A stretch of 64,000 nucleotides of DNA from Bacillota bacterium (GTDB taxonomy: Bacteria; Bacillota; Sulfobacillia; RBS10-35; JAJYVN01), in the NCBI GenBank assembly GCA_021797775.1, contig JAJZZC010000004.1, positions 1 to 64,000 of the forward strand, written 5' to 3'. Each line of letters opens with the position of its first letter. Positions within the stretch are counted from its first letter, which is position 1. The notes below the pieces were generated by a model. It did no database searches, was not told the origin of the DNA, and saw only the letters and a list, made by a program, of their open reading frames with translations. The translations under genes and the position numbers were made by a program. This document shows positions 20,291-55,618 of this stretch, in pieces.

Positions 20291-21062
20291 GACCGTTCCC
20301 CCCCTCCCGCAAGCCCGGCGCACCACGGCCGGGACGCGCGGGGAAAGACGCGACGGCGGCCCGGGACATGTTCCGCCCCGGCGGCGGCAACTCCTGCGGA
20401 GACCGGGGCGGCTGCAGGGTCGCGTCATTGCGGTGGGGGGCGGTGCCGGGGCGGCCCCCAGCCACGCCGTGGCGCCGGCCATGCGAGCTCCAGCATCCGC
20501 CAGGCGCGGGGGCCGTAGTAGGTGCGTGAGCCCATGCGGGGCGCACGGCCATGGTGGAGCGGGAGAACGCGCACGCAAATGCTCCGAGCCACGCCCCGCC
20601 CACCGCCCGCTGTTCCGGGACAGGTCCGCGGTGCCGTGTGGGGCGGGTGCAGGGATGCCGGCGGGGTCGGTCGAACGACGTCGCCGCTCGGCGGGGTCGG
20701 CGGCGCGCACCCGGGGCGGGCCGGGTAGGCTGTTGGCGCCAGCGGCGGGGCCACGGCCCTCTGCGCGGTCGCGGCGTGCTTGGTGGACGGCCTGAGCGAG
20801 AGGTCATCGCCAGGGTCGGACGCCGCTTGGGCGTGCGTGCGCGCAGCGGGCGGGGTGCGCCGCCCTGCCCCCCCAGCGGTGGCCGGTATGGCGCAGAGCG
20901 CCCGGGTGGCCATGTCGGCGCTGCGGCCGCGAGCCCCCCTCCCGAACGACTCCTTCCGGGCGCCGAGGCAGGGCGGGCACGCTGCGCGCAGGGTCCGCCC
21001 CCCCCCTGCACGACCCCGCACGACGCTGCGACGCATGGTTCAACGAACGGGAGGGACCGACC

Positions 21063-26163: not shown

Positions 26164-26273
26164 GCACCCTCGCCTCCGTTTCCCGGGGCACCGGCAATCC
26201 CGTGCCCCGAGTGGCAGGATAACCTCGTTGCTTGCACAACGCAAGGGATAGACGCATACTGTTGCCTATCCGG

Positions 26274-26498
26274 CAGGGTCGCGTCGTTCTGGGCGAGTCG
26301 CTTGCGCCACAGGCCGAATTCGGCGCGTACGGCCGTCAGTGCCCCCGAGACCCCACGGGTGCAGCGGCCGCATCGAGGCGCCGAACCTGTGCGCGGCATG
26401 CGGTCGCAGGCGCGAGCGGACCGGCATGCCGCTCCGAAGTCACCCCCGCTCGTGGCGCCGTCTGGGCGAAGGCCCCCCGCCGGAATGACGCGACCCTG
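26274..26498 (-). mobile_element. MITE-like element copy A (225 bp)
   Basis: 12-bp perfect TIR CAGGGTCGCGTC/GACGCGACCCTG; flanks GCCTATCCGG (26264-26273) and GCCCATCCGG (26499-26508), 9/10 duplication; inverted homolog at 38370-38611. Confidence 0.85.
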
Positions 26499-26534
26499 GC
26501 CCATCCGGGAGCGGCGCAGGTCGAGGTGAACGCG

Positions 26535-26939
26535 ATGACGAACGACTGGACATGTCCCGTCGCGCGCGCAGCCCGCGTCCTGGGCGACGAGTGCGTGCTG
26601 TTGGTGTTGCGAGACCTCGCGCCCGGCCCGCGCCATTTCGGCGAGTTCCTCGGGTCTGCCTGCGGCAACACACGGACCTTGAGCGCGCGTCTCAAACGGC
26701 TGACGGACCTTGGGCTGGTCGAACGCCGGCCCCAAGGCGGGCGGCCACCACGTGTGCTCTACAGCCTGACCCCCATGGGCCGCCACTTGCTGCCCGCCGT
26801 GGACGTGCTGCGCGCCTTCGGAGAGCGCTGGCTGCCGTCGGGCTGCGACCCGCTCGCCGGGGCTGCGATCCACCCAGGTGGCGAGGATGCCGGCGCCGAG
26901 GGCCCGGCCGTTGGCGGATCGGCGGTTACCGTCCCTTAG
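26535..26939 (+). CDS. HxlR family transcriptional regulator
   Basis: CPVARAARVLGDECVLLVLRDLAPGPRHFGEF...NTRTLSARLKRLTDLGLVERRP; ATG at 26535. Confidence 0.85.
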   Translation: MTNDWTCPVARAARVLGDECVLLVLRDLAPGPRHFGEFLGSACGNTRTLSARLKRLTDLGLVERRPQGGRPPRVLYSLTPMGRHLLPAVDVLRAFGERWLPSGCDPLAGAAIHPGGEDAGAEGPAVGGSAVTVP

Positions 26940-27244
26940 CCCCGTCTCGGTCCGACCGCTGCCCTCACCGGCACCGCACCCCAGGAGCGCCGTTGCCCCG
27001 CGCCCCCCCCCTGCGACCTGACGCTCCGCTCGATCCCGTTGGTCCGCCCGCGCACACACGGGACCGCTCCCTCCCCACGGATCCCACACCACGCCATCCC
27101 GCCCGCCACGGCCCCCCCTCGCGGGGACCACCGCCCCCATGGCCCCGGCCGCGGGCGCGCTGTGCCCCTGCTTGCGCCGCCGCACCTCACGCCCCCCCCC
27201 AGGGGGGGCACACCACCAGGCCGAGTATGGCCCGCACCGCCCCG

Positions 27245-28876
27245 TCAGCCCCCGAGCACGCCACCCTCCGCTGCGGGCTCCCGCGGGGGGGGCGCCGTGC
27301 CTTTCCCCTGGAGGACGCCCTCACGCTGGCGTACCAACCGGCGTTGCCAGAGGAATTGCCGGCCGAGTTCCTCGAAGCGGAAGCCGAGCTCCCGCCCGTC
27401 CCTGGACTGCCAGAGAATCTCCGCGATGCGGCTCTCCAGAGAGCGCCGCGCCCCGGACTCCATCCGCCGCAGGATGACGTCCAGTTCACCGATCACCTGG
27501 CGGAAGAGGTTGATCTTCTCGTCGAGCAGGCGTAGCAGATGCTCCTCGATCGTGTCCTCGGCATAGAGGTTGTAAACGTAAACATCCCGGGTCTGGCCGA
27601 CGCGATGCACCCTACCGATGCGCTGCTCCACGCGCATGGGATTCCAGGGCAGGTCGAAGTTGACCACGTTGCGGCAGACCTGCAGGTTTAGCCCCTGGCC
27701 ACCGCTCTCGGTGGAGATCAGCACCGACCGGGGTTCCTCGCGGAAACGGCGCACGGCACGATCCCGCTCGTCCATCGCCTGCTCCCCGTGAAAGAGCAGC
27801 ACGGGCAGGCCGAGATCCCGCAGGCGGCCGGCCAGAAACTCCTGCGTCGCCCGGAACTCCGTGAATACGATGGCCCGGTCGCGCAGGTCGGCGACCAGGC
27901 CCTGGAGCACGCGCGCCTTGGCCTGCTCGCGTACACCATCCGCCAGGGTGCGCAGTTCGTCCAGGTCGCCGCCAAGCCAGGCGGCGCGCTCCATGGCGCC
28001 GAGCGTACGGCGCACAGCGGCTGCGGATGAGCACACCTCCCTTTGCAGCGTAATCAGCGGCAGGACCGTCGACTCCCCCTGCACGCGCCGCCAGTACTCC
28101 TCGCGCACCGCCGCCGAGATCGCGTCATACAGCCGCCGCTCCTCCGCCGTCAGGCGTAGCGGCAAGAGCGCCACCTGGCGCGCGGGCAGCCGCTCCTCGG
28201 CGCCGAGGTCCTGGCGGTGGTGGCGCACCATTACCGAGGCCAGCACCTGGCGTAGGGCGTCGGGGTCGCGCGGGGTGCGCCGGTCCAAGAGGAACTGGCG
28301 CCAGAAGGCCTGGAAGCTGCCGAACAGGCCCGGCCGGACCAGCGAGACCAGGGCGTAGAGTTCCGTCAGGTCGTTCTGCATCGGGGTGGCGGAGAGCAGG
28401 AGCAGGCGGCGTCGCGGCAGGCTGGCCACCAACCGGTGGTTCTGCGTCTGGCGGTTCTTGAGCTTGTGCGCCTCGTCCACCACCGCCAGGTCCCACTGCC
28501 GGCCGCAGAGTGCCTCGCGGGCCTCGGGCCGCTTGGCCACGTCGATCGAGGACACGACGAGTTCCTCCCGACCCAGGTCAGCGGGCCGGCCATCGCAGGT
28601 GAAGCGCAGCCCGAACTTGTCGGCCAACTCCCGCTGCCACTGGTAGCAGAGGGAGGCCGGGCAGAGCACGAGCACCGAACGGCACTCCCCGCGCGCCATG
28701 AGCTCAGACATGATCAGCCCGGCCTCGACCGTCTTGCCCAAGCCCACCTCATCGGCGAGGATGCCCTGCCCGCCCATGGCCAGCACGCGCTCAGCCGTTT
28801 CGATCTGATAGGGAAGGAACCGCACGCCTGCGGCCTCCCACCTCGGGCGCAGGCGTTCCAAGCAGGTGAGCGCCAT
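27245..28876 (-). CDS. SNF2/RapA-type DEAD/DEAH helicase
   Basis: GILADEVGLGKTVEAGLIM, LAVVDEAHKLKN, LLLSATPMQN, VLISTESGGQGLNLQ, RVEQRIGRVHRVGQTRDV. Confidence 0.92.
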   Translation of the reverse strand: MALTCLERLRPRWEAAGVRFLPYQIETAERVLAMGGQGILADEVGLGKTVEAGLIMSELMARGECRSVLVLCPASLCYQWQRELADKFGLRFTCDGRPADLGREELVVSSIDVAKRPEAREALCGRQWDLAVVDEAHKLKNRQTQNHRLVASLPRRRLLLLSATPMQNDLTELYALVSLVRPGLFGSFQAFWRQFLLDRRTPRDPDALRQVLASVMVRHHRQDLGAEERLPARQVALLPLRLTAEERRLYDAISAAVREEYWRRVQGESTVLPLITLQREVCSSAAAVRRTLGAMERAAWLGGDLDELRTLADGVREQAKARVLQGLVADLRDRAIVFTEFRATQEFLAGRLRDLGLPVLLFHGEQAMDERDRAVRRFREEPRSVLISTESGGQGLNLQVCRNVVNFDLPWNPMRVEQRIGRVHRVGQTRDVYVYNLYAEDTIEEHLLRLLDEKINLFRQVIGELDVILRRMESGARRSLESRIAEILWQSRDGRELGFRFEELGRQFLWQRRLVRQREGVLQGKGTAPPPREPAAEGGVLGG

Positions 28877-29133
28877 GCCTCCGCCATCCCCCCGGCTGCC
28901 TCTCTGCTGCTACCTGGCAGTGTCCCCAGCCGGCGCGGCGCGGAACCGGAAGCACCCCTCCCCACGGTCGGCGCGGGGCCCCGTCCAGGCCGACACGCGC
29001 GCACGGGGCGCGGCGCGCCACCCGGCAGCCTCTGCCTGCAGGGTGGCGCCACCCCCCGCCCCGGACGCACGGGAACGCTTCGCGGACCCTGGCGCCAGAT
29101 CCACTCCGGGCAGGACGGGCGCAGGCCCGGCCA

Positions 29134-30081
29134 TCAGCGGCGCGCGAGGGCCGCGCCCCCAAGCGCCCCGGCCAGGTCGGCGAGCGCGCGCAGGTCCTGC
29201 GGGGGCGCCTGACACAGCCCGGCGAACGGGTCGCGTCCCGCGGCCAACCGGTCCGCGACGGCGCGCAGGTCGAAGGACTCCGGACGGACGTCAGCCACCT
29301 CGGCCCACTCCAGCGGCGTGGACACCGGGGCGCCGGGCAACGGACGCGGAGAGTAGGGGCCGCAGAGGGTCTTGCCGTGTGCGTTCTGCAGGTAGTCGAA
29401 GTAGACGCGGCCCGCGCGGAGCGCCACGCGCCGCTCCAGGGTCACGCGCTCCGGCCAGAGCCGCAGCAGCAGTTCGCCAAGGGCGCGCATGACCAACGCC
29501 ACCTGGCGGTGGGTGTGGATCGGCCGGATGGGGATGAAGAGGTGCAGGCCGGTCGCGCCGGAGGTCTTGGGCCAGGAGGCCACCCCCGCCCGGTCCAGGA
29601 GTTCGCGCACGAGGGCGGCCACAGCGCGTGCGTCTTCAAAGCCCGCGGGGGGCATGGGATCCAGATCCACCACCGCACGATCCGGCTGCTCCGGGTAAGC
29701 GCAGGTCGAGAGCCAGGGGTGGAACTCGATGGCCGCCTGCTGGCCGATCCAGAGCAGGTCAGAGAGCGAGGCCGCCACCAGGTAGTCGATGGCACGGCCT
29801 GACGCGCTGGCCTGGCGGAACCGCGGCAGCCAGCCGGGGGCGGTGGCTGGCAGGTTCTTCTGGTAGAAGGAGGGCCCCAGCGCCCCGTCGGGATAGCGCG
29901 TCAGCACCAGCGGCCGCCCGCGCAAGTGGGGCAGCACGTGCGGGGAGATGGCGCGCAGGTAGTGGAGGTAGTCTCCCTTCGTCCAGGACGGCCCGCCGGG
30001 ACGGGCGGGCGGCCAGAGCACCTTGTCCAGGTGCGTCAGCCGCAGCGGCGACCCCGCGCGCCCGACACCCTCGCCGGTCAA
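29134..30081 (-). CDS. ligD: LigD-type polymerase (NHEJ primase-polymerase), stand-alone PolDom
   Basis: LDKVLWPPA...WTKGDYLHYLRAISPHVLPHLRGRPLVLTRYPDG...FYQKNLP; DLDPMPPAGFEDARAVAALVRELL; no ligase domain. Confidence 0.88.
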   Translation of the reverse strand: MTGEGVGRAGSPLRLTHLDKVLWPPARPGGPSWTKGDYLHYLRAISPHVLPHLRGRPLVLTRYPDGALGPSFYQKNLPATAPGWLPRFRQASASGRAIDYLVAASLSDLLWIGQQAAIEFHPWLSTCAYPEQPDRAVVDLDPMPPAGFEDARAVAALVRELLDRAGVASWPKTSGATGLHLFIPIRPIHTHRQVALVMRALGELLLRLWPERVTLERRVALRAGRVYFDYLQNAHGKTLCGPYSPRPLPGAPVSTPLEWAEVADVRPESFDLRAVADRLAAGRDPFAGLCQAPPQDLRALADLAGALGGAALARR

Positions 30082-30887
30082 TGCAAACCGGCCCCGTCGT
30101 CGGGTCTGCCCGCGGCGCGGCGTGCCTCCGCGGCCCGTACGCTCGCCTCCAGGGCGGCGAGCAGGTCGGCGTAGCGCTCCGGCGGCCCCTCTGCCACAGG
30201 CGCCACCGCCTCTGGCGTCTTACTGGCGATGACCGCGGCGATGGCGGCGCGGTGGGCGTCGGTGTAGCGCGCCGGGTCCCAAGCTGTGGTCAGGCGTTCA
30301 ATCAGCGCCGCCGCGACTTCCATCTCCCGGGGAGGAAGCGGGCCCTCCTCCGGCAGGGCATCCACCTGGCGCCAGTCGCGGATCTCGTCGGGATAGCGCA
30401 TGGTCTCCAGCGTCAGGCACGCCCCCACCACCCGGATCAGGGCGAGGCGCTCCTTGGCACGTAGGGTCAGGGTCGCCACGGCCGCTCGCCCGGTTTGCGC
30501 AAGCGCCGCGCGCAGCAACGCGTACGGGCGCCCTCCAGCCTCGGCGGGGCCGATGAAGTACGAACGTTCGAATTGCAAGGGATCGACGTCGGCGAGTTGG
30601 ACGAAGTCCATGATGGTGATGACGTGGGCGGCCGCGGGCCCCAGTGATTCGAGTTCCTCGTCCTCGACCACCACGAAACGGCCGGGCGAGACCTCAAAGC
30701 CGCGCACGATGTCCGCGGGCTCCAGCGTCACCTCGCAGTGCGGGCAGGTCCGGCGGTAGACGACGGGCGTGCGGCAGGCGCGGTGCAACTGGCGGAAGTG
30801 CACGTCCCGATCCTCGGTGGCGGCGTAAAGCCGGCAGGGGATGTGCACCAGCCCGAAACTCACCGCGCCCTTCCACAGGCTGCGCAC
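30078..30887 (-). CDS. ku: Ku protein (NHEJ)
   Basis: MRSLWKGAVSFGLVHIPCRLYAATEDRDVHFRQLHRACRTPVVYRRTCPHCE...DFVQLADVDPLQFERSYFI. Confidence 0.95.
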   Translation of the reverse strand: MRSLWKGAVSFGLVHIPCRLYAATEDRDVHFRQLHRACRTPVVYRRTCPHCEVTLEPADIVRGFEVSPGRFVVVEDEELESLGPAAAHVITIMDFVQLADVDPLQFERSYFIGPAEAGGRPYALLRAALAQTGRAAVATLTLRAKERLALIRVVGACLTLETMRYPDEIRDWRQVDALPEEGPLPPREMEVAAALIERLTTAWDPARYTDAHRAAIAAVIASKTPEAVAPVAEGPPERYADLLAALEASVRAAEARRAAGRPDDGAGLH

Positions 30888-31426
30888 GCGCCTTTCCCCC
30901 TTCGGGCGCCCTCACGGCCGAGCACCTTCGCGCGCCGCCGGCGGCCCCCACCCCTCTGTACCGGCAGCGCGGACGGGGTGGCCCGCGCGGGCTGGCCCGG
31001 GTCGACGCGCAACGGCCTCACCGGGCGACGGAGTCGCGGGCGGACACGGTCCGCCGGCCGTGCGGCCCGGACACATCCCGCCAAGGCCGAGTCAGGGCAG
31101 ACGCCGGCGCCCCCTGTGCCCGAGCTCGCCCCTGTGGCGGGCGGCTGTGTCCCGGCAGGGCGGTGGTGCACGCGAGGGCGGTCAGCCTGACGGGGTCCCG
31201 CCCATCTGCCGCGGGCGGACGCCTGTTCCAGGCACCGCGCCCGCCCGGCGGGGCCTTGCTTCGGGCCGCCGTCGCCCGCGAGGGACCGCTAGGCCGCGTG
31301 GCCGCCTGGATGACGCCGCGCAAAGCCGCGCTGCCGCACGGCTATCGAGGGCAGGGCTAACAGCCTGACGGCCAGGCGGGCCTCTCTCGTGCGCTTGCCG
31401 CGAACGAGGACTTGCACGGCACCTGC

Positions 31427-31999
31427 CTAGGACGGCGCCCCGTCGCCCGGCAGGCTGCCTACGGCGGACACCACGGGGTCGCCATTCTGCGCGCTGCTGG
31501 CGTCGCCGCCGTCGCTTGCCCCTTCCGCTCCGGGCGAGGTGCCCCCGTGCCGGCGGTGGCCGCCAGCGCCCAGCGCGGCCAGCATGCGGTCGAGCACCTC
31601 GGGCGCCAGGTCGAGCAGGCGCTCCAGCGAGGCGCGCTGGTCCACGGGCAACAGACGGACGCTTCCCTGCTGCACGACGAGGAAGCCCACGGGCCGTACG
31701 CTCACGCCAGCCCCGCTGCCGCCGCCGAAGGGCAGTGCCTCGTCGGCAGCGCCGCGGTGGGCGCCCACCCCGTACTCGCCCCCGCCGGCGGCAAAACCGA
31801 ACGAGACCTGGGAGACGGGCACGATCACCGTGCCATCCCGTGTCTCGATGGCGTCGCCCACGACCGTATTGACGTCCACCATGGCCTGCAGGCTAGCCAT
31901 CGCCGTCCGCATCAGCCCCTGGATCGGGTGCCGGCCGCCCGGGATCCCGTCCGCGCCCGCATCACTTGGAGCATCCCGCGACGCTGTCTGCAAGGCCAA
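31427..31999 (-). CDS. gerW: GerW/YtfJ family sporulation protein
   Basis: MVDVNTVVGDAIETRDGTVIVPVSQVSFGFAAGGGEYG...GVSVRPVGFLVV. Confidence 0.85.
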   Translation of the reverse strand: MALQTASRDAPSDAGADGIPGGRHPIQGLMRTAMASLQAMVDVNTVVGDAIETRDGTVIVPVSQVSFGFAAGGGEYGVGAHRGAADEALPFGGGSGAGVSVRPVGFLVVQQGSVRLLPVDQRASLERLLDLAPEVLDRMLAALGAGGHRRHGGTSPGAEGASDGGDASSAQNGDPVVSAVGSLPGDGAPS

Positions 32000-32214
32000 C
32001 GCCTCCCGTGCGCGCCTGAAGCGGCGCGCGCTACACTAAGAGCCCATCCGCCAACTCTGCCCCCACTTCACGCCGGTCGCCTCGCATGCCAACGGCGGGA
32101 AAGGCTCACCATGCTGCCGTCCTGGTGCGCCTGCTCCGCCTGACGCGCTCCCCGGCCTTGGGGCACGAGGGCCAAGGCACTTCGTCCTGCGGCAGGCCAT
32201 GCACCGGATTTTGG

Positions 32215-32817
32215 TCATGTCCGTAGGGCCCCGCCGCGGCGCGCGGCCCACCACCCCAGGGCCAGGGCGACGATAAGATGGCCGAGCCGGGTGCGGAGTA
32301 TGCAACCGGCCCGCAGGCTGGCCACCGGGCGCCGGTAGTCGGGCCACACCTCGATGCGTGGGGCCGCGCCCTCGGCACGCACCCATGCCCCCAGCACGCC
32401 CAGTGCGGCGCCGGCCAGCCCGTGCAGCACCCCGCAGGCGACAGCCGTAGCGGCGGGATCTCCGGTCCCGACGCGGATGTGCGCGCGCAAGCGACCGAGG
32501 CCGACGCGCCAGGGTGGGCCCAACAGGTAGCGCAACACGGGCTCCACCTCAACCACTGGCGCGTCACGGCCACGGCGCGGGGGATGGCCCCGCGCCGTGG
32601 TCTCGCCCGCACCGTGGCCGGCGGCAGCGCCGCCGCCCGTACCCGAGTCCCAGCCGGTACGCACCAGGCCACGCAGCACGACCAACCGTACCGCCAAGCG
32701 CTGCCGGCGGGGGGTGGCCGCTACCGCGACCAGCGCACGCACCTCGGCCAGGGCCAGGGCGACGCCGATCGCCGCCAATGCGCCCGGAAGCGGGAGCCAT
32801 TGCCACCAACGCGCCAT
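32215..32817 (-). CDS. DUF2953 (YtfI-type) membrane protein
   Basis: LGRLRAHIRVGTGDPAATAVACGVLHGL...VWPDYRRP; upstream of gerW as in the ytfI-ytfJ arrangement. Confidence 0.7.
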   Translation of the reverse strand: MARWWQWLPLPGALAAIGVALALAEVRALVAVAATPRRQRLAVRLVVLRGLVRTGWDSGTGGGAAAGHGAGETTARGHPPRRGRDAPVVEVEPVLRYLLGPPWRVGLGRLRAHIRVGTGDPAATAVACGVLHGLAGAALGVLGAWVRAEGAAPRIEVWPDYRRPVASLRAGCILRTRLGHLIVALALGWWAARRGGALRT

Positions 32818-32970
32818 GCCGCAGCACAGCCTTCCCGCGGCCCGGGGCGGGCATGCGCGGGTGACTCGCCCCCACCGAGCCACGTCAGGGGGCGGCATGC
32901 CGTGGACAGGCCCGGCATAGGCCTGCTCCGGCCCGGCGCGCCGCCGGGGGCGGAAGGGGGGGGCGGACCG

Positions 32971-33867
32971 GTGCGCATCGTGGCCGTCCGCTGGCGTAGA
33001 CCGCAGCGGGGGCGTGGGGCTTGGCGGACGCATCGTAGCCGCACGCCCCGCCCCGAGGCGGGGCGGCCGCCAGGGGCGGCGGAGGCCGCGTCGCCAGGGC
33101 TCCGAGCCCCCTGGGCCAGGATCGTCCGCGGGCTGTCCGCCGCCCTACTGGCGGCCGGGCTGATCGCGTTACCCGGTGGGCGGGCGGAAGCCCCGCAGCA
33201 GCCGCCATTGCCGCTTGCGGACGGCCTGGCTCCCCAACCGGCAGCCGTCCTCCGCGCCGTCGCGGTCGCGCGCCCACTCCTGCAACTTCCCGGGGGTCCC
33301 GGTCCGGTCGGGCCGGTCCCCTGGCTGCCCTTGCCGCGGTCTATCCACAAGCCCGTGCTCCCCAAGCCACACGCCCCGTCGCGCAAGGCCATGGCCGCCG
33401 TCCCGCCCACCCGCGGCAGTACCGCCCCCCTCTCACCCGCCGTGCGCCGGGAGCTCCGGGCCGCGGCACGGGAAACGGGGCTGCCGGCGGCGCTCCTGCG
33501 GGCGGTGGCGACGGTGGAATCACAGGGCGACCCGTGGGCGGTCAGCCCGGCCGGTGCGGAGGGGCTGATGCAACTGGAGCCCGTCACGGCGGCCAGCCTC
33601 GGCGTGCGCAACGTCTTCAACCTCGGGCAGAACGCGCGGGGCGGGGCGCGCTACCTCGCCGGGCTACTGCGGACCTACGCGGGCGGCGACCCGCGCTGCA
33701 TCGCCTTTCCCGCCGGCTGCCCGGCGGCGCTGCGCCTGGCGCTGGCGGCCTACAACGCCGGACCGGGCACGGTCCGGCGATACGGCGGCGTGCCCCCCTA
33801 TCCCGAAACCAAACGCTACGTCCGCTTGGTGACCGCCCTCTATCTGCGCATCGCCAACCAGGGATAG
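32971..33867 (+). CDS. Lytic transglycosylase (SLT domain)
   Basis: GLPAALLRAVATVESQGDPWAVSPAGAEGLMQLEPVTAASLG...ALAAYNAGPGTVRRYGGVPPYPETKRYV; probable GTG start 32971. Confidence 0.85.
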   Translation: MRIVAVRWRRPQRGRGAWRTHRSRTPRPEAGRPPGAAEAASPGLRAPWARIVRGLSAALLAAGLIALPGGRAEAPQQPPLPLADGLAPQPAAVLRAVAVARPLLQLPGGPGPVGPVPWLPLPRSIHKPVLPKPHAPSRKAMAAVPPTRGSTAPLSPAVRRELRAAARETGLPAALLRAVATVESQGDPWAVSPAGAEGLMQLEPVTAASLGVRNVFNLGQNARGGARYLAGLLRTYAGGDPRCIAFPAGCPAALRLALAAYNAGPGTVRRYGGVPPYPETKRYVRLVTALYLRIANQG

Positions 33868-33929
33868 CGAGAGCGTTGCAGGGCCACGTCTGCTAGGCGT
33901 CATGTCTTACAGCGGCATGGGTCCTGAGA

Positions 33930-34050
33930 CTCATCGTTACCCACATCTCGACCCCCGAGTGCTGTGGGGGCGTCAAGACCCTAGATGTTGCGCTCCGCAG
34001 TCCCTATAGACGCCAGATGTAGCGGATCCAGGACTTGTGGGTAACGGCAA
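33930..34050. mobile_element. Putative 121-bp MITE-like element / IS-end relic
   Basis: 11-bp IR CGTTACCCACA (33935-33945) / TGTGGGTAACG (34036-34046), flanked by perfect 10-bp direct repeat GGTCCTGAGA (33920-33929 and 34051-34060). Confidence 0.6.
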
Positions 34051-34084
34051 GGTCCTGAGAGGGTTGGCCCCGGCCTTATCCCCG

Positions 34085-34124
34085 ACCGGCGTGACCCAGG
34101 CGCGCGCGTCGGGGTCACGCCGGT
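34085..34124. repeat. 13-bp perfect inverted repeat
   Basis: ACCGGCGTGACCC / GGGTCACGCCGGT, 14-nt loop. Confidence 0.55.
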
Positions 34125-34370
34125 ACGCAACCCCCCTCTACCTCGGGCCCGCCGCCGGTTCCCGGCAGAGGCACAAGGTGGCCAAGCGGCGCAACGCAAG
34201 GTGTACCGACCCGCCGCCGTTTTGGCGGCCAGACCGCTTCGGCCGCCGCCCACGCCATCCGTCCGCACGGCCCCGCGGCCAGAACGCCAGGGCCCAGATC
34301 TGGGCGGAGAGCCTGCCGCGCCCGGGACGTCCACCGTCAGAACGCCGGCCGCGCCGGCATGGGGGGACGC

Positions 34371-35996
34371 CTAAGAACCGTCGGATCCCACGCCCTCTGT
34401 CTCCGAGCCGGCAGCGGCCGCCGTTGCGCCGTCCAACCGCTCGATCCGTTGGGGCCGTGGTCCGGCCGAGGCCTCGTGCGGTCGGGGCACCGGAGGAACC
34501 CCCTCAGCGGCCGCCAACTCGTCGAGGGATCCCAGGCCGAAGTGCTCCAGGAAGCGTTTGGTGGTGACGTAGAGATAGGGGCGGCCGGGCGCCTCGGCCC
34601 GCCCGCCCTCCGCGATCAGCCCCCGCTCGAGCAGGGTCGCGATGGCGCCCTCGGAGTGCACACCGCGCAACTCGTCCACCGCCGCCCGGGTGACGGGCTG
34701 CCAGAAGGCCACGATGGCCAGGGTCTCCATCGCGGCGCGCGAGAGCGGCGGGACGCGGCTCGCCCCGCCCCCGGCCAAGACCTCGGCGAACTCCGGCCGG
34801 GTGAGCAGTTGGTACCCGCCGGCAAGCTCCACGAGGGCGGTGGCGTGCCCGTGGGCGTCCAGGTGCGCGGCCAGTTCGGCCAGGGCGCGCCGGACCGGCG
34901 CCGAGCCGGTGCCGCAGACCCGGGCCAGCCGATCCAGTGCCACCGGCTCGGCCGTTGTGAACAGCGCCGCCTCCAACCGCGCCGCCAGCTCGCTCAGCGC
35001 GCCATCGCGGTCGGCACCACGCAGCCGCAGGGCGGGGCCATCCGCAGCGTCGACGGGGCGCGCCGGAACCTCAACCGCCGCACCCTCGGGTGGCGCGGCC
35101 GCACCCTCCGGGGCCGTCCCCGCGCGCGGCGGGCGGCGGGTGCCCCGCCCCGGGACGCCCCTGGTCCGCAGACGAGCGCCCACCCGGTCCAGCACGCTGG
35201 CATCCCCTGTGCCAACCGACGCGCCGCCCGGATGCACGGCCACTGCGGCAGGCGCGGCGTCGCCGGCGCTCTCTAGAGGGGCCGCCGACCTGTCGACGAC
35301 ATCCAGGGGGGCCACCGATCCAGCCTCTTCCGAGGCAGCGGCGGCAGTGGCTGGCCCACCAGCATCCGCGCCGTCCGTGGGCCCCGGCGGCGGCACCGAC
35401 CCGTTGGCTGTCGTGCCCTCCGCCTCACCCGTGGCGTCCCGTCCCGCCCCCACCGCGCCCTCCGCGCCCTCCGGTCGGACCACGGACCCGGTAGGCTCCG
35501 GGACGTCGGGCGCGCCTGCCGCGCTCGTCGCCCGCTGAGGGACGCATCCATCCGACTCCCCAGGCCCGCCCGCGACGGCACCGGCGGACGCCACGACCGC
35601 ACCGTACCCGGCGGCGCCCCCGTGCTCCAGGGTGGCCACAACCTCATCCCCTACCGCGACGACCGCCCCGCCCGCTGGCGCATCAACGCCTTGCACCGTG
35701 CCGCCAGCGCTCTGCCGTGGGGCCACGCCCCCATCCACTGGTGCAAGCCCCCCCGCACCCGTGCCCGCGAGGGCCGCGCCAGACGCCCCGCCAGCGGCGG
35801 TCTCCTGGGCGGCCACCCCGTCCGGCGGGCCACCCGCCCCCGCGGCGCCCGTACCACGGTCGACGGCGACCATGCCCGTACCAACCCCGGCTCCCGGTCG
35901 GGCGCTCACCCTCGCCGCATCCGATGCGCCCGACCCCACGTCGGGTTCGGGGATCACGGTGACCAACGGGTCTGCTCCAGGCGCTTCAGCGGGCAT
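34371..35996 (-). CDS. scpB: Segregation and condensation protein B with about 330-aa low-complexity N-terminal extension
   Basis: Core LEAALFTTAEPVALDRLARV...YQLLTRPEFAEVL...LSRAAMETLAIVAFWQPVTRAAVDELRG...KRFLEHFGLGSLDEL in the last ~210 aa; in-frame A/G/P/V-rich extension; start overlaps scpA stop. Confidence 0.8.
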   Translation of the reverse strand: MPAEAPGADPLVTVIPEPDVGSGASDAARVSARPGAGVGTGMVAVDRGTGAAGAGGPPDGVAAQETAAGGASGAALAGTGAGGLAPVDGGVAPRQSAGGTVQGVDAPAGGAVVAVGDEVVATLEHGGAAGYGAVVASAGAVAGGPGESDGCVPQRATSAAGAPDVPEPTGSVVRPEGAEGAVGAGRDATGEAEGTTANGSVPPPGPTDGADAGGPATAAAASEEAGSVAPLDVVDRSAAPLESAGDAAPAAVAVHPGGASVGTGDASVLDRVGARLRTRGVPGRGTRRPPRAGTAPEGAAAPPEGAAVEVPARPVDAADGPALRLRGADRDGALSELAARLEAALFTTAEPVALDRLARVCGTGSAPVRRALAELAAHLDAHGHATALVELAGGYQLLTRPEFAEVLAGGGASRVPPLSRAAMETLAIVAFWQPVTRAAVDELRGVHSEGAIATLLERGLIAEGGRAEAPGRPYLYVTTKRFLEHFGLGSLDELAAAEGVPPVPRPHEASAGPRPQRIERLDGATAAAAGSETEGVGSDGS

Positions 35997-36747
35997 GGGC
36001 CCCGCCCTCCCCACGCGCGCCCTTCCACTCGATGCGCAGGGGGGCGAAGGGCCCCTCCTGATGCACGGCGACCTCGCCCTGGCGCACCATCTCCAGGATG
36101 GCTAGGAAAGTGACCACCACCTGCAGACGATCGGCGTCGGGCGCGAACAACTCCGCGAAGTCGGCGCTGCCCGCCTGCGCGAGATGGCGCCGGAGATCAC
36201 GCACGGCCATCGCCACGCTCCAGCGCTCGCGGCGCACCTCGCGCGTACGGGGCTGCGCGCGCTCCCAGACCTCAGCGAACACCCGAAGCAGGCGTTCGAG
36301 GTCCCCGCGCGCGGCGGACTCTGCGGCGGGACCCGGCGCGGGCGGCCGAGGCGCGGCCGCTGGCCCTACCGCGGCCGCCGCCTCGGCAGGCCGCCCGAAC
36401 CGGCCGGCGCGTTGCCGCTCGAAGGCGCGCAAGGCTTCCGCCGCCTCGGCAAAGGCCTCGTACGCGGCTAGCCGCTCCGCTAGCGCCTGCTCCTCCTCCT
36501 CGGGCGTCCGCTCCTCGGTCAGCTCCTCGGCCGGCGGCGGCACCGGGAGCAGGGCACGCGCCTTGCGCTCCACCAGATGGGCCAGCGCGACGAACGCCGC
36601 GACGGCGGCGTCGAGATCGCCCGCGGCCGCGCGCACCTGGGCCAGCACCTCTTGCAGAGGCAGCGTGGCGGGATCTACGGTGCCGTTGTCGACAGCGGCC
36701 AGCAGTTCCGGCAGGTCTCCCTCAAACCCGTCCCACCGCACGCGCAT
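35986..36747 (-). CDS. scpA: Segregation and condensation protein A
   Basis: FEGDLPELLAAVDNGTVDPATLPLQEVLAQV...AFVALAHLVERKARALLP...VTFLAILEMVRQGEVAVHQEGPFAPLRIE. Confidence 0.88.
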   Translation of the reverse strand: MRVRWDGFEGDLPELLAAVDNGTVDPATLPLQEVLAQVRAAAGDLDAAVAAFVALAHLVERKARALLPVPPPAEELTEERTPEEEEQALAERLAAYEAFAEAAEALRAFERQRAGRFGRPAEAAAAVGPAAAPRPPAPGPAAESAARGDLERLLRVFAEVWERAQPRTREVRRERWSVAMAVRDLRRHLAQAGSADFAELFAPDADRLQVVVTFLAILEMVRQGEVAVHQEGPFAPLRIEWKGARGEGGAHAR

Positions 36748-36880
36748 CGCCGCCGGCTCCAGAGCGACCGCCCCCTTTCCCGCTACCGTCGCAGGGTCGA
36801 CGGGCGCGCGGCGCGGCAGCCCGCGCCACCGGGCCGGCCCTGCCCGGAGCCGGCAGGCCAGGGCGCCCGTGCGCGCGGGC

Positions 36881-37537
36881 TCAGATCGTCGCCACGGCCT
36901 GGAGCGCGTTGAGCAGCCAGGTCGCCATGGGGAAGAGGACGGTGCGCGTGAGCACACCGGTGAAGACCAGCAATAGCAGGATGATCCAACCGTAGGGCTC
37001 AATCTGGGCCATCAGGCGCGCCCCCCCTTCGGAAACGGTGGAGAGTACGCGCGACCCGTCCAGCGGCGGGATCGGCAGGATGTTGAACACCGCAAAGAAA
37101 ACGTTGTAGATGACGGCCAGTTGCACGATCTGCTCGAACACATGGCCGAGGTTGCCCGTCCCCCAGGGCACGTGCAGCAGCAACAACAAGAAGACGAAGC
37201 CCAGCAGGACGTTCATCACCGGTCCAGCGAGCGCGACGAGCAACAACCCCATCCGGGGGTTGCGGTAGTAGCGCGGGTCGATCTGTACAGGACGGGCCCA
37301 GCCGAAGTGGAAGACCCAGAGCATGATCATGCCGATCCAGTCGATGTGGGCCAACGGGTTGAAGGACAGACGCCCGTAGCGCGCGGGCGTGGGGTCGCCG
37401 AGCGCGGTGGACACCGCCGCGTGCGCCCACTCGTGAAACACGATGGCGACGAGGAGGCCCGGTACGCCGACGATCAGCGTCTCGATGCTGACGCCGAACA
37501 GCAGGGAAAGCGCCCCTTTCCACGCCAGCCACCCGAC
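36881..37537 (-). CDS. Site-2 protease family (M50) zinc metalloprotease
   Basis: IVFHEWAHAAVSTALGDPTPARYGRLSFNPLAHIDWIGMIML...FNILPIPPLDGSRVL. Confidence 0.88.
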   Translation of the reverse strand, partial: VGWLAWKGALSLLFGVSIETLIVGVPGLLVAIVFHEWAHAAVSTALGDPTPARYGRLSFNPLAHIDWIGMIMLWVFHFGWARPVQIDPRYYRNPRMGLLLVALAGPVMNVLLGFVFLLLLLHVPWGTGNLGHVFEQIVQLAVIYNVFFAVFNILPIPPLDGSRVLSTVSEGGARLMAQIEPYGWIILLLLVFTGVLTRTVLFPMATWLLNALQAVATI

Positions 37538-37727
37538 CGGCCGAGAGTGGCCCGGGGCAGGGTGCGCCAGCGGCAGGCCTTCGCCCCGTGCTCCACGCCC
37601 CGTGCGGACGCGCGAAGCCCCTCGCTGCGGGCACCAGGGCATTCTATCCGTCGATGGGCCGGCCCGGCAACGGCGCTGCGCCGATGCGGTCACGCCCGGG
37701 CGGGGTGCCCCCCTCCGCGCGACGATC

Positions 37728-38033
37728 TCAGACCGCGTCCTCGTGCCCCTCGGCCGCGGGGCCGTCGGCGCCGACGGCCGCGAGGAAACGGCCATCCTCG
37801 GTTTCTTCTCCCTGGGCCAGGCAGCAGGCCAGGAAGGCGGCGGACGAGATGATCTCCCCGTTGGATGCACGCCGTCGGGCCGTAAAGCTGACGCCGCGCG
37901 TGCCCATCACCTCGCGCGAAGCGAGGAGGTAGACACGCTGGAGGTGCGGGCGCCGCACACAGCACACGGTAAACGCGACCTTGCCACGATAGCGGGTCTT
38001 GAGCGAAAGCGTGCAGACCTCCCGCGCTTGCAC
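37728..38033 (-). CDS. Small hypothetical protein
   Basis: LKTRYRGKVAFTVCCVRRPHLQRVYLLASREVMGTRGVSFTARRRASNGEIISSAAFLACCLAQGEETEDGRFLAAVG; protein-like composition, no family recognised. Confidence 0.4.
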   Translation of the reverse strand: MQAREVCTLSLKTRYRGKVAFTVCCVRRPHLQRVYLLASREVMGTRGVSFTARRRASNGEIISSAAFLACCLAQGEETEDGRFLAAVGADGPAAEGHEDAV

Positions 38034-38369
38034 CCCGGACACGAACGCACCTCCGGTCGGACGGGCCCATGGCAGGCACGCGGCACATAACCAAAACACA
38101 ACTCCGGGCGCACCCGATCCGGGGTACGCGCAGACCGAAGGCGGCCGTCGACGGAGAGCCGCCTTGACCGGCGAAAGCGCCACGGCGGGACGGGTCGTTG
38201 CGGCCGGGCGGCGGCGATCCATGCCGCCTGCAGACGGGTCGGCAGGGCAGCGCACGGGGCGTTGCGGCGTCGAAACCGAGCCGGCTGCGACGAGCGGTCG
38301 GGGCGGATGCCGGTGGGTCGGGGGTTTCTACCGAACCGCCGGCCGCTCCTGCCGAATGCGCGCCGGGGG

Positions 38370-38611
38370 CAGGGTGGCGTCACTCCGGCGGGGGGCCTTC
38401 GCCCAGACGGCGCCACGAGCGGGGGTGACCGCGGAGCGGTACGCCGGTCCGCTCGCGCCTGCCACCGCTTGCCGCGCACAGGTTTTGCGCCACGATGCGG
38501 CCGCGGCGCCCGTGCGGTCACGGGGGCCGCGGCCGGCCGTACGCCGCGCATTCGGCCTGCGCCCGCAATCGCCTGTGGCGCAAGCGACTCGCCCAGAACG
38601 CCGCGACCCTG
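38370..38611 (+). mobile_element. MITE-like element copy B (242 bp), inverted relative to copy A
   Basis: Termini CAGGGTGGCGTC / GCCGCGACCCTG; perfect 10-bp flanking duplication GCGCCGGGGG (38360-38369 and 38612-38621); high identity to reverse complement of 26274-26498. Confidence 0.88.
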
Positions 38612-39234
38612 GCGCCGGGGGCGGGGGCGGGGTCGCGTCATGGCGGCCTCCAGAGGGCGGCGTCGCTCGCCGCCATGCGCCGGACCTGCGCGCGACGGGT
38701 GTGCGCACCGCTCGGGACGCCAGCGAGGTGGCGAGTCCGCGCCCACCCGCGCGCCACGCGCTCTTGCCCCGGGGCGCCTCCGACCGCCCGCTGCCGGCTA
38801 CCTGCCAGACCTTGTCGCTGAGGCCGTTTGGCGGCAGCGGCGCGGCCCTGGCGCCGCTCTGGCGGGGTTGCTCCTACCGAGCGTCCCCTGTTGCGCGCTG
38901 CCACGTACTGCACCGCGTGCCCGCGCCTCGGCCACGGCCTTTTCATCGACCGGGTCCTGCGGCCGTCCCCTTGCCGCACCCCCGGGACCGGGATAGACTG
39001 CCTGTGCCGTTGGGTGGAGCGATGCCCTGAGTGCGCTTCCGCACCTGCGGGATCCCCTTATGTGGCGGTGCGCCCCACCGGGGGCGCGGCACGTGCCGGG
39101 CGGGGTCGGTTGAGGCGGATGCCAGTTTGCGCTGGTTCCTGTGGAATGGCCCGCGTTTCCCGGCACGGTCACGCGATCGTAGAGAGACTGCGAGGGTTGG
39201 CGCATCGCCACTCCCGCGCGGGGGAGGCACGGGG

Positions 39235-55250: not shown

Positions 55251-55618
55251 TGGGAGTGCCGGCGGGGCGGGAGCGGGCCGTGCGCCGGGCCGCGGCGTTC
55301 GCGCCAGACGCAGGCGGCCTCAGCGACACGGGTTGGCAGTGGAGCGCGACATCCCGGGGCGACGGTGGCTCGGGGAAGCCCCTCCGAGCACCGCCACCGT
55401 GGGCGCCCCATCCCATTCCGCGGCCGCCGCGGTGGCGGGCACCGGGGGGCGCCCCGGAAGGCCGCCCGCGTCGCGGCGTCGAAGCGGCACGCGCTCGGGC
55501 CACGGCGGTCCAGCGACGGAGCGGGGCAGGCCGCCCGCATCGCGCGCCGGGGGTCGGCCGCCGAAACCGCGCAGGCCCGCGACATGGCGCTGGGGCGCTT
55601 TCCGGGGGTGGCGGCGCT

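Follow-up and report, generated by a model that had tools for sequence, protein, structure and literature searches.

ISAs1-related miniature elements inserted at a fixed distance upstream of putative sigma-H-type promoters in a Bacillota genome

Introduction

Promoter-directed insertion in bacteria has been documented for TnGBS, ISLre2 and part of ISKra4, which carry Mutator-like DDE transposases and whose right end comes to lie beside a sigma-A promoter, 15-17 base pairs (bp) upstream of it (PMC3942029, Guerillot et al. 2014). A contact of their transposases with the transcription initiation complex has been suggested, and elements of this group with near-perfect inverted repeats can insert either way round (PMC3942029). 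Here, a family of miniature inverted-repeat transposable elements (MITEs) is described from the metagenome-assembled genome (MAG) of a Bacillota bacterium, two copies of which lie in the 64,000-nucleotide stretch that was analysed (positions 1 to 64,000 of contig JAJZZC010000004.1, assembly GCA_021797775.1; hereafter the window). The best overall explanation of the data, to which we assign a probability of roughly 0.82, is that these MITEs are mobilised in trans and inserted at a fixed place upstream of sigma-H-type promoters.

In both the TnGBS, ISLre2 and ISKra4 group and the present family, insertion is oriented and takes place upstream of a promoter at a constant distance, and a further likeness is seen in one related insertion sequence (IS), L067, which has near-symmetric ends and faces its promoter the other way round. 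In contrast to that group, the transposase here is of the ISAs1 type (PF13808 plus PF01609, DDE_Tnp_1) with an added DruA domain instead of Mutator-like, the promoters are predicted to be of the sigma-H type (AGG...GAA) instead of sigma-A, the target duplication is 10 bp long and most copies are MITEs. Because another transposase family and an alternative sigma factor are involved, the comparison suggests that promoter-directed insertion evolved independently here. Like the ISAs1 family, the related IS encode a transposase with PF13808 and PF01609, have ends starting with CAGGG and make 10-bp target site duplications (TSDs), while they differ in their promoter targeting and in the N-terminal DruA domain (DUF4338), which has been described as GNAT-like (PMC10853773). 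ISAs1 is not mentioned in PMC3942029, and no report of promoter targeting by ISAs1, or of DruA paired with ISAs1, was found in a partial coverage of the literature. With prokaryotic MITEs such as Correia, MITEAba12 and QMITE1 (reviewed in PMC10969869), the family has in common that its members are short, non-coding, high-copy, bounded by terminal inverted repeats (TIRs), flanked by TSDs and situated near genes. Landing upstream of an occupied promoter may also follow a safe-site logic like that of yeast Ty3, cited in PMC3942029 as targeting via TFIIIB/TFIIIC, although Ty3 is a eukaryotic retrotransposon and no homology is claimed.

Insertion sites of the elements

Empty sites were rebuilt by joining the flanks of 53 copies with a proven TSD, counting the first TSD base as offset 0, and were oriented by the element's own ends, independently of any motif. 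The rebuilt sites carry a strong signal on one side only: AGG stands exactly at base 19 outward from the right-type end in 38 of the 53, whereas the opposite side never has it there (0/53). Of these 38 sites, 15 have GAA at +21 and 16 have it at +22, with none at +20 or +23, so that 82% have GAA at one of the two positions, compared with 6.3% of the CAGG occurrences in ordinary upstream regions. The elements are thus set in one orientation and at a fixed distance to a bipartite, promoter-like motif. Nearly all insertions (50/53) lie between genes; in the direction of the motif, the gene that comes next is co-oriented in 47 of 49 cases (p = 4e-12), while upstream neighbours are divided 22:20 between the two orientations. 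Insertion is thus targeted, the elements landing just upstream of predicted promoters and facing them. Pairs of MITEs only 10-15 bp apart were also observed (G000:C242:5403-5882, C299:44765-45235 and C325:3461-3939), which suggests either repeated use of one promoter-upstream site or insertion beside an existing copy.

The published consensus of sigma-H promoters consists of a -35 box, RNAGGAWWW, and a -10 box, RNNGAATWW (PMC8510167), and the target motif fits both with a 1-bp wobble in spacing. The motif is also a promoter signal in its own right: upstream of host genes, GCAGGA-N17/18-GAA was found 18 times in sense and once in antisense orientation, and the sense enrichment is essentially restricted to spacings of 17 and 18, with none at others. 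The same box pair lies upstream of spoVG, a classical sigma-H gene, in two relatives, and SigH scores above the curated cut-off in six genomes, i.e., the host and five relatives. Consensus, spacing, the spoVG upstream regions and the presence of SigH all point to the AGG...GAA motif being a sigma-H-type promoter.

Both MITE copies in the window fit this targeting pattern (Table 1). In copy A, the -10-like half overlaps the start of an HxlR-type gene (ATG 26535); because of this overlap, the motif probably only mimics a promoter instead of serving that gene as one.

The pattern extends to other, related genera. AGG at 19 with GAA at +21 or +22 accompanies five right-type ends in G005, a sister-genus genome, including that of an IS remnant (L276). 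AGG at 19 combined with GAA at +22 was also seen at autonomous IS ends in G104 (L068) and G128 (L067); in L067 it is the left end, with the transposase on the minus strand. Reading by hand gave AGG at 19 and GAA at +22 for the IS right end in G005 (L113), AGG at 18 and GAA at +21 for L065 (G036) and L066 (G039), and AGG at 19 only for L114.

A mobile and non-autonomous family

The two window copies lie in opposite orientation and align from end to end with a single 16-base gap between GCCTG direct repeats. The 225-bp form (short subfamily) and the 242-bp form (long subfamily) differ mainly by this 16-bp deletion, and the shorter was probably derived from the longer; both ends of these 225-242 bp elements carry the extended pattern CAGGGTSGCGTCRTTCYGG. 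The host genome is a draft of 5.55 Mb in 407 contigs with an estimated contamination of 6.7%. Similarity searching gave at least 42 matches in it, with 40 of 195 candidates scored, and CAGGGTSGCGTCRTTCYGG with at most two mismatches matched it 226 times, compared with 2 matches of a reversed control pattern. Among 80 contigs sampled without bias (1.01 Mb), there were 22 merged matches, 17 of them at least 180 bp long, which extrapolates to roughly 95-120 copies genome-wide, a figure to be read with the possible collapse of identical copies in the draft assembly in mind. In addition, a second MITE subfamily of about 240-255 bp has the same ends and TSD length as the first, and an iterated profile merges the two.

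The elements are mobile and insert at cuts staggered by 10 bp. The duplications agree in at least 8 of 10 bases in 53 of 74 full-length copies, 35 of which are perfect, as against 0.5% in a control that paired flanks between different copies. Moreover, an empty site on contig C257 (L112) aligns with both flanks of the MITE on C38 (L093), and the two flank alignments have exactly the 10-bp target in common. Searches of 60 related genomes yielded no full-length copy, and the MITE core had no exact match in GTDB genomes other than the host, in a search that may itself have passed over the host genome. All elements are too short for a transposase gene, and the window repeats are non-autonomous, multi-copy elements with TIRs and TSDs, i.e., MITEs.

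The initial annotation had recognised the two inverted window copies as a non-autonomous MITE moved by transposition, and its ends and duplications (10/10 bases in copy B, 9/10 in copy A) were recovered as described. The searches it had proposed, for further copies in the host and its relatives and for empty sites, gave the results above, and the family proved to be neither a single-copy sequence without TSDs nor a conserved orthologous intergenic RNA. While the identity of the element stood, its oriented insertion at a fixed distance upstream of putative sigma-H-type promoters had been overlooked.

The ISAs1-type parent

An ISAs1-type parent, offered in the initial annotation as a guess, is supported by sequence comparison. 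Genomes of the same class carry ISAs1-type IS whose transposase has DruA at the N-terminus and, after it, DDE_Tnp_1_assoc and DDE_Tnp_1, and this DruA, PF13808 and PF01609 architecture is found in L037, a relative of the L114 transposase. L114 itself (MAG WH2.bin132) lies on a contig that begins inside the gene, with the transposase covered from about residue 135 (C-terminal part); the gene ends at 1361 and a terminal repeat lies at 1532, 171 bp past the stop codon. This right (downstream) end matches that of copy A at 25 of 25 bases, and the MITEs thus have their ends in common with an ISAs1-type IS. For delimiting such IS, the best combination of TIR and TSD alone gave mostly false pairs, and a pair was retained only if its ends were CAGGG or its TSDs perfect. 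The delimited DruA-ISAs1 relatives L067, L090, L115, L116 and L122 have 10-bp TSDs that agree at 10/10 bases, and L065 has a TSD of 9 bp.

Derivation of the MITEs from an IS by internal deletion was rejected, as no similarity to the IS was seen past the terminal ~25 bases on either side. Because only the ends and not the internal sequence match the IS, the MITEs are to be classed, by sequence, as type II, with ends common to the parent and no visible internal sequence in common. In the host, contig C138 holds only a broken relative of the IS, with the left end CAGGGCTACGTCATTCC, and an intact ISAs1 relative on C148 was discarded as parent, having no recognisable matching ends.

Two further observations concern the DruA-bearing elements. 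The loci L115, L116 and L122 of a Paracoccaceae bacterium (OY282431.1) are near-identical, DruA-ISAs1-type elements of 2185 bp with perfect 10-bp TSDs and no adjoining sigma-H-like motif. Stand-alone DruA-like open reading frames of about 300-330 amino acids are common in these genomes beside the DruA-ISAs1 fusions, for example at L093 on C38 and L112 on C257.

Proposed mechanism and alternative explanations

In the proposed mechanism, the type II MITEs would be moved in trans by a transposase of the ISAs1 type that bears a DruA domain (PF14236) at its N-terminus and would join the CAGGGT...ACCCTG ends to target cuts staggered by 10 bp. The right-type end would be placed so as to face a sigma-H-type promoter (GCAGGA...GAA), at 18-19 bp upstream of its -35 element, and the insertion would leave the promoter intact. 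We infer that what the transposase recognises is not naked DNA but a promoter to which sigma-H RNA polymerase is bound, with the -35 region as the anchor. Two arguments speak for this: the distance from the insertion point to the -35-like half is constant, while the position of the -10-like half varies by one base, as is usual for promoter spacers; and both halves matter (82% versus 6%). It could further be speculated, at slightly less than even odds, that guidance of DruA-ISAs1 transposases by sigma-H RNA polymerase couples transposition to entry into stationary phase or sporulation, with insertions just upstream of sigma-H promoters, as a convergent sigma-guided system.

Several points weigh against this mechanism. 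No intact IS with matching ends was found in the host MAG, which is fragmented and may miss one, and 22 of the 53 TSD-proven sites (about 40%) are without the full AGG and GAA at the exact position. It is the left end of L067 that faces the promoter, and the sigma-H-like motif was not found at L090 or at the three Paracoccaceae insertions of the related IS; the Paracoccaceae host is an alphaproteobacterium, in which sporulation sigma-H is not expected. The gene calls come from a home-made, simple codon model with approximate starts. Finally, the -10-like half inside the coding start at copy A implies that the machinery also accepts mimics.

That last point would also suit a transposase that reads the bipartite DNA by itself, perhaps via its DruA domain, with no RNA polymerase or sigma factor involved, as the motif at copy A was used although it probably does not function as promoter for the neighbouring gene, and sequence alone covers most sites. 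Yet a rigid DNA-binding protein usually fixes the spacing, whereas here it varies between 21 and 22 with the near half fixed, as in a promoter spacer, and nearly all sites lie upstream of genes, which makes direct reading of DNA rather unlikely. Improbable, too, is that a sigma factor other than sigma-H with AGGA- and GAA-like boxes, e.g., a weaker SigH-like paralogue, is responsible. The host MAG does encode two further SigH-like genes, and the T of the -10 GAAT is weakly conserved (10/31), but the spacing and both boxes agree with the published sigma-H consensus (PMC8510167), and both boxes recur before spoVG in the relatives.

The remaining explanations dispense with targeting or with mobility altogether. 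Intergenic bias alone is common among MITEs, and an ordinary MITE could have acquired its apparent motif through selection, insertions elsewhere having been lost; selection would, however, leave unexplained why AGG occurs at a single offset, on one side and in one orientation, and this reading is very improbable. An immobile, conserved intergenic RNA or regulatory repeat at both loci would fit the strong predicted folding (z -4.3 as DNA, -3.0 as RNA), yet inverted repeats give folding anyway, and the TSDs, the empty site and the lack of full-length copies in 60 related genomes and of exact core matches in GTDB genomes outside the host leave this reading next to no probability. A conserved RNA or a chance repeat was accordingly ruled out by the TSDs, the copy number and the empty site.

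Should the MITEs indeed be inserted upstream of sigma-H-type promoters, the insertions may serve as a natural map of such promoters in uncultured Bacillota. Moreover, the compact cassette of short ends and one transposase makes promoter recognition by the transposase directly testable.

Other element traces in the window

Besides the two copies, the window holds a fragment of the second subfamily, a small piece of a left-type end and a stretch that is probably a degraded third element (Table 1).

Table 1 Element copies, target duplications and promoter-like half-sites in the window
Feature	Position	Strand	Details
Degraded third element (tentative)	20415..20639	+	right-type end CAGGGTCGCGTCATTGCGG at 20415; far end badly eroded
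Copy A, left TSD	26264..26273	.	GCCTATCCGG
MITE copy A	26274..26498	-	short subfamily, 225 bp; IS-right-type end at 26498; nhmmer E 5e-62
Copy A, right TSD	26499..26508	.	GCCCATCCGG; 9/10 versus left
Copy A, -35-like half	26516..26524	+	GCAGGTCGA; AGG 26518-26520, offset 19 from element end
Copy A, -10-like half	26537..26545	+	GACGAACGA; GAA +22 after AGG
Copy B, -10-like half	38323..38331	-	GTAGAAACC; GAA +22
Copy B, -35-like half	38344..38352	-	GCAGGAGCG; AGG 38350-38348, offset 19
Copy B, left TSD	38360..38369	.	GCGCCGGGGG
MITE copy B	38370..38611	+	long subfamily, 242 bp; IS-right-type end at 38370; nhmmer E 1e-63
Copy B, right TSD	38612..38621	.	GCGCCGGGGG; 10/10 versus left
Piece of MITE left-type end, close to copy B	38795..38850	+	nhmmer E 2e-6
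Fragment of second MITE subfamily	55287..55457	-	TIRs as in first subfamily; nhmmer E 6e-24

The probable third element is flanked by GGGGCGGCTG before 20415 and GGGGCGGGTG after 20639, a possible TSD that agrees in 9/10 bases and is G+C-rich, and its target motif lies on the minus strand, with AGG at 20395-20393 and GAA at 20373-20371. All three right-type ends of the window (20415, 26498 and 38370) thus have AGG at 19 and GAA at +22.

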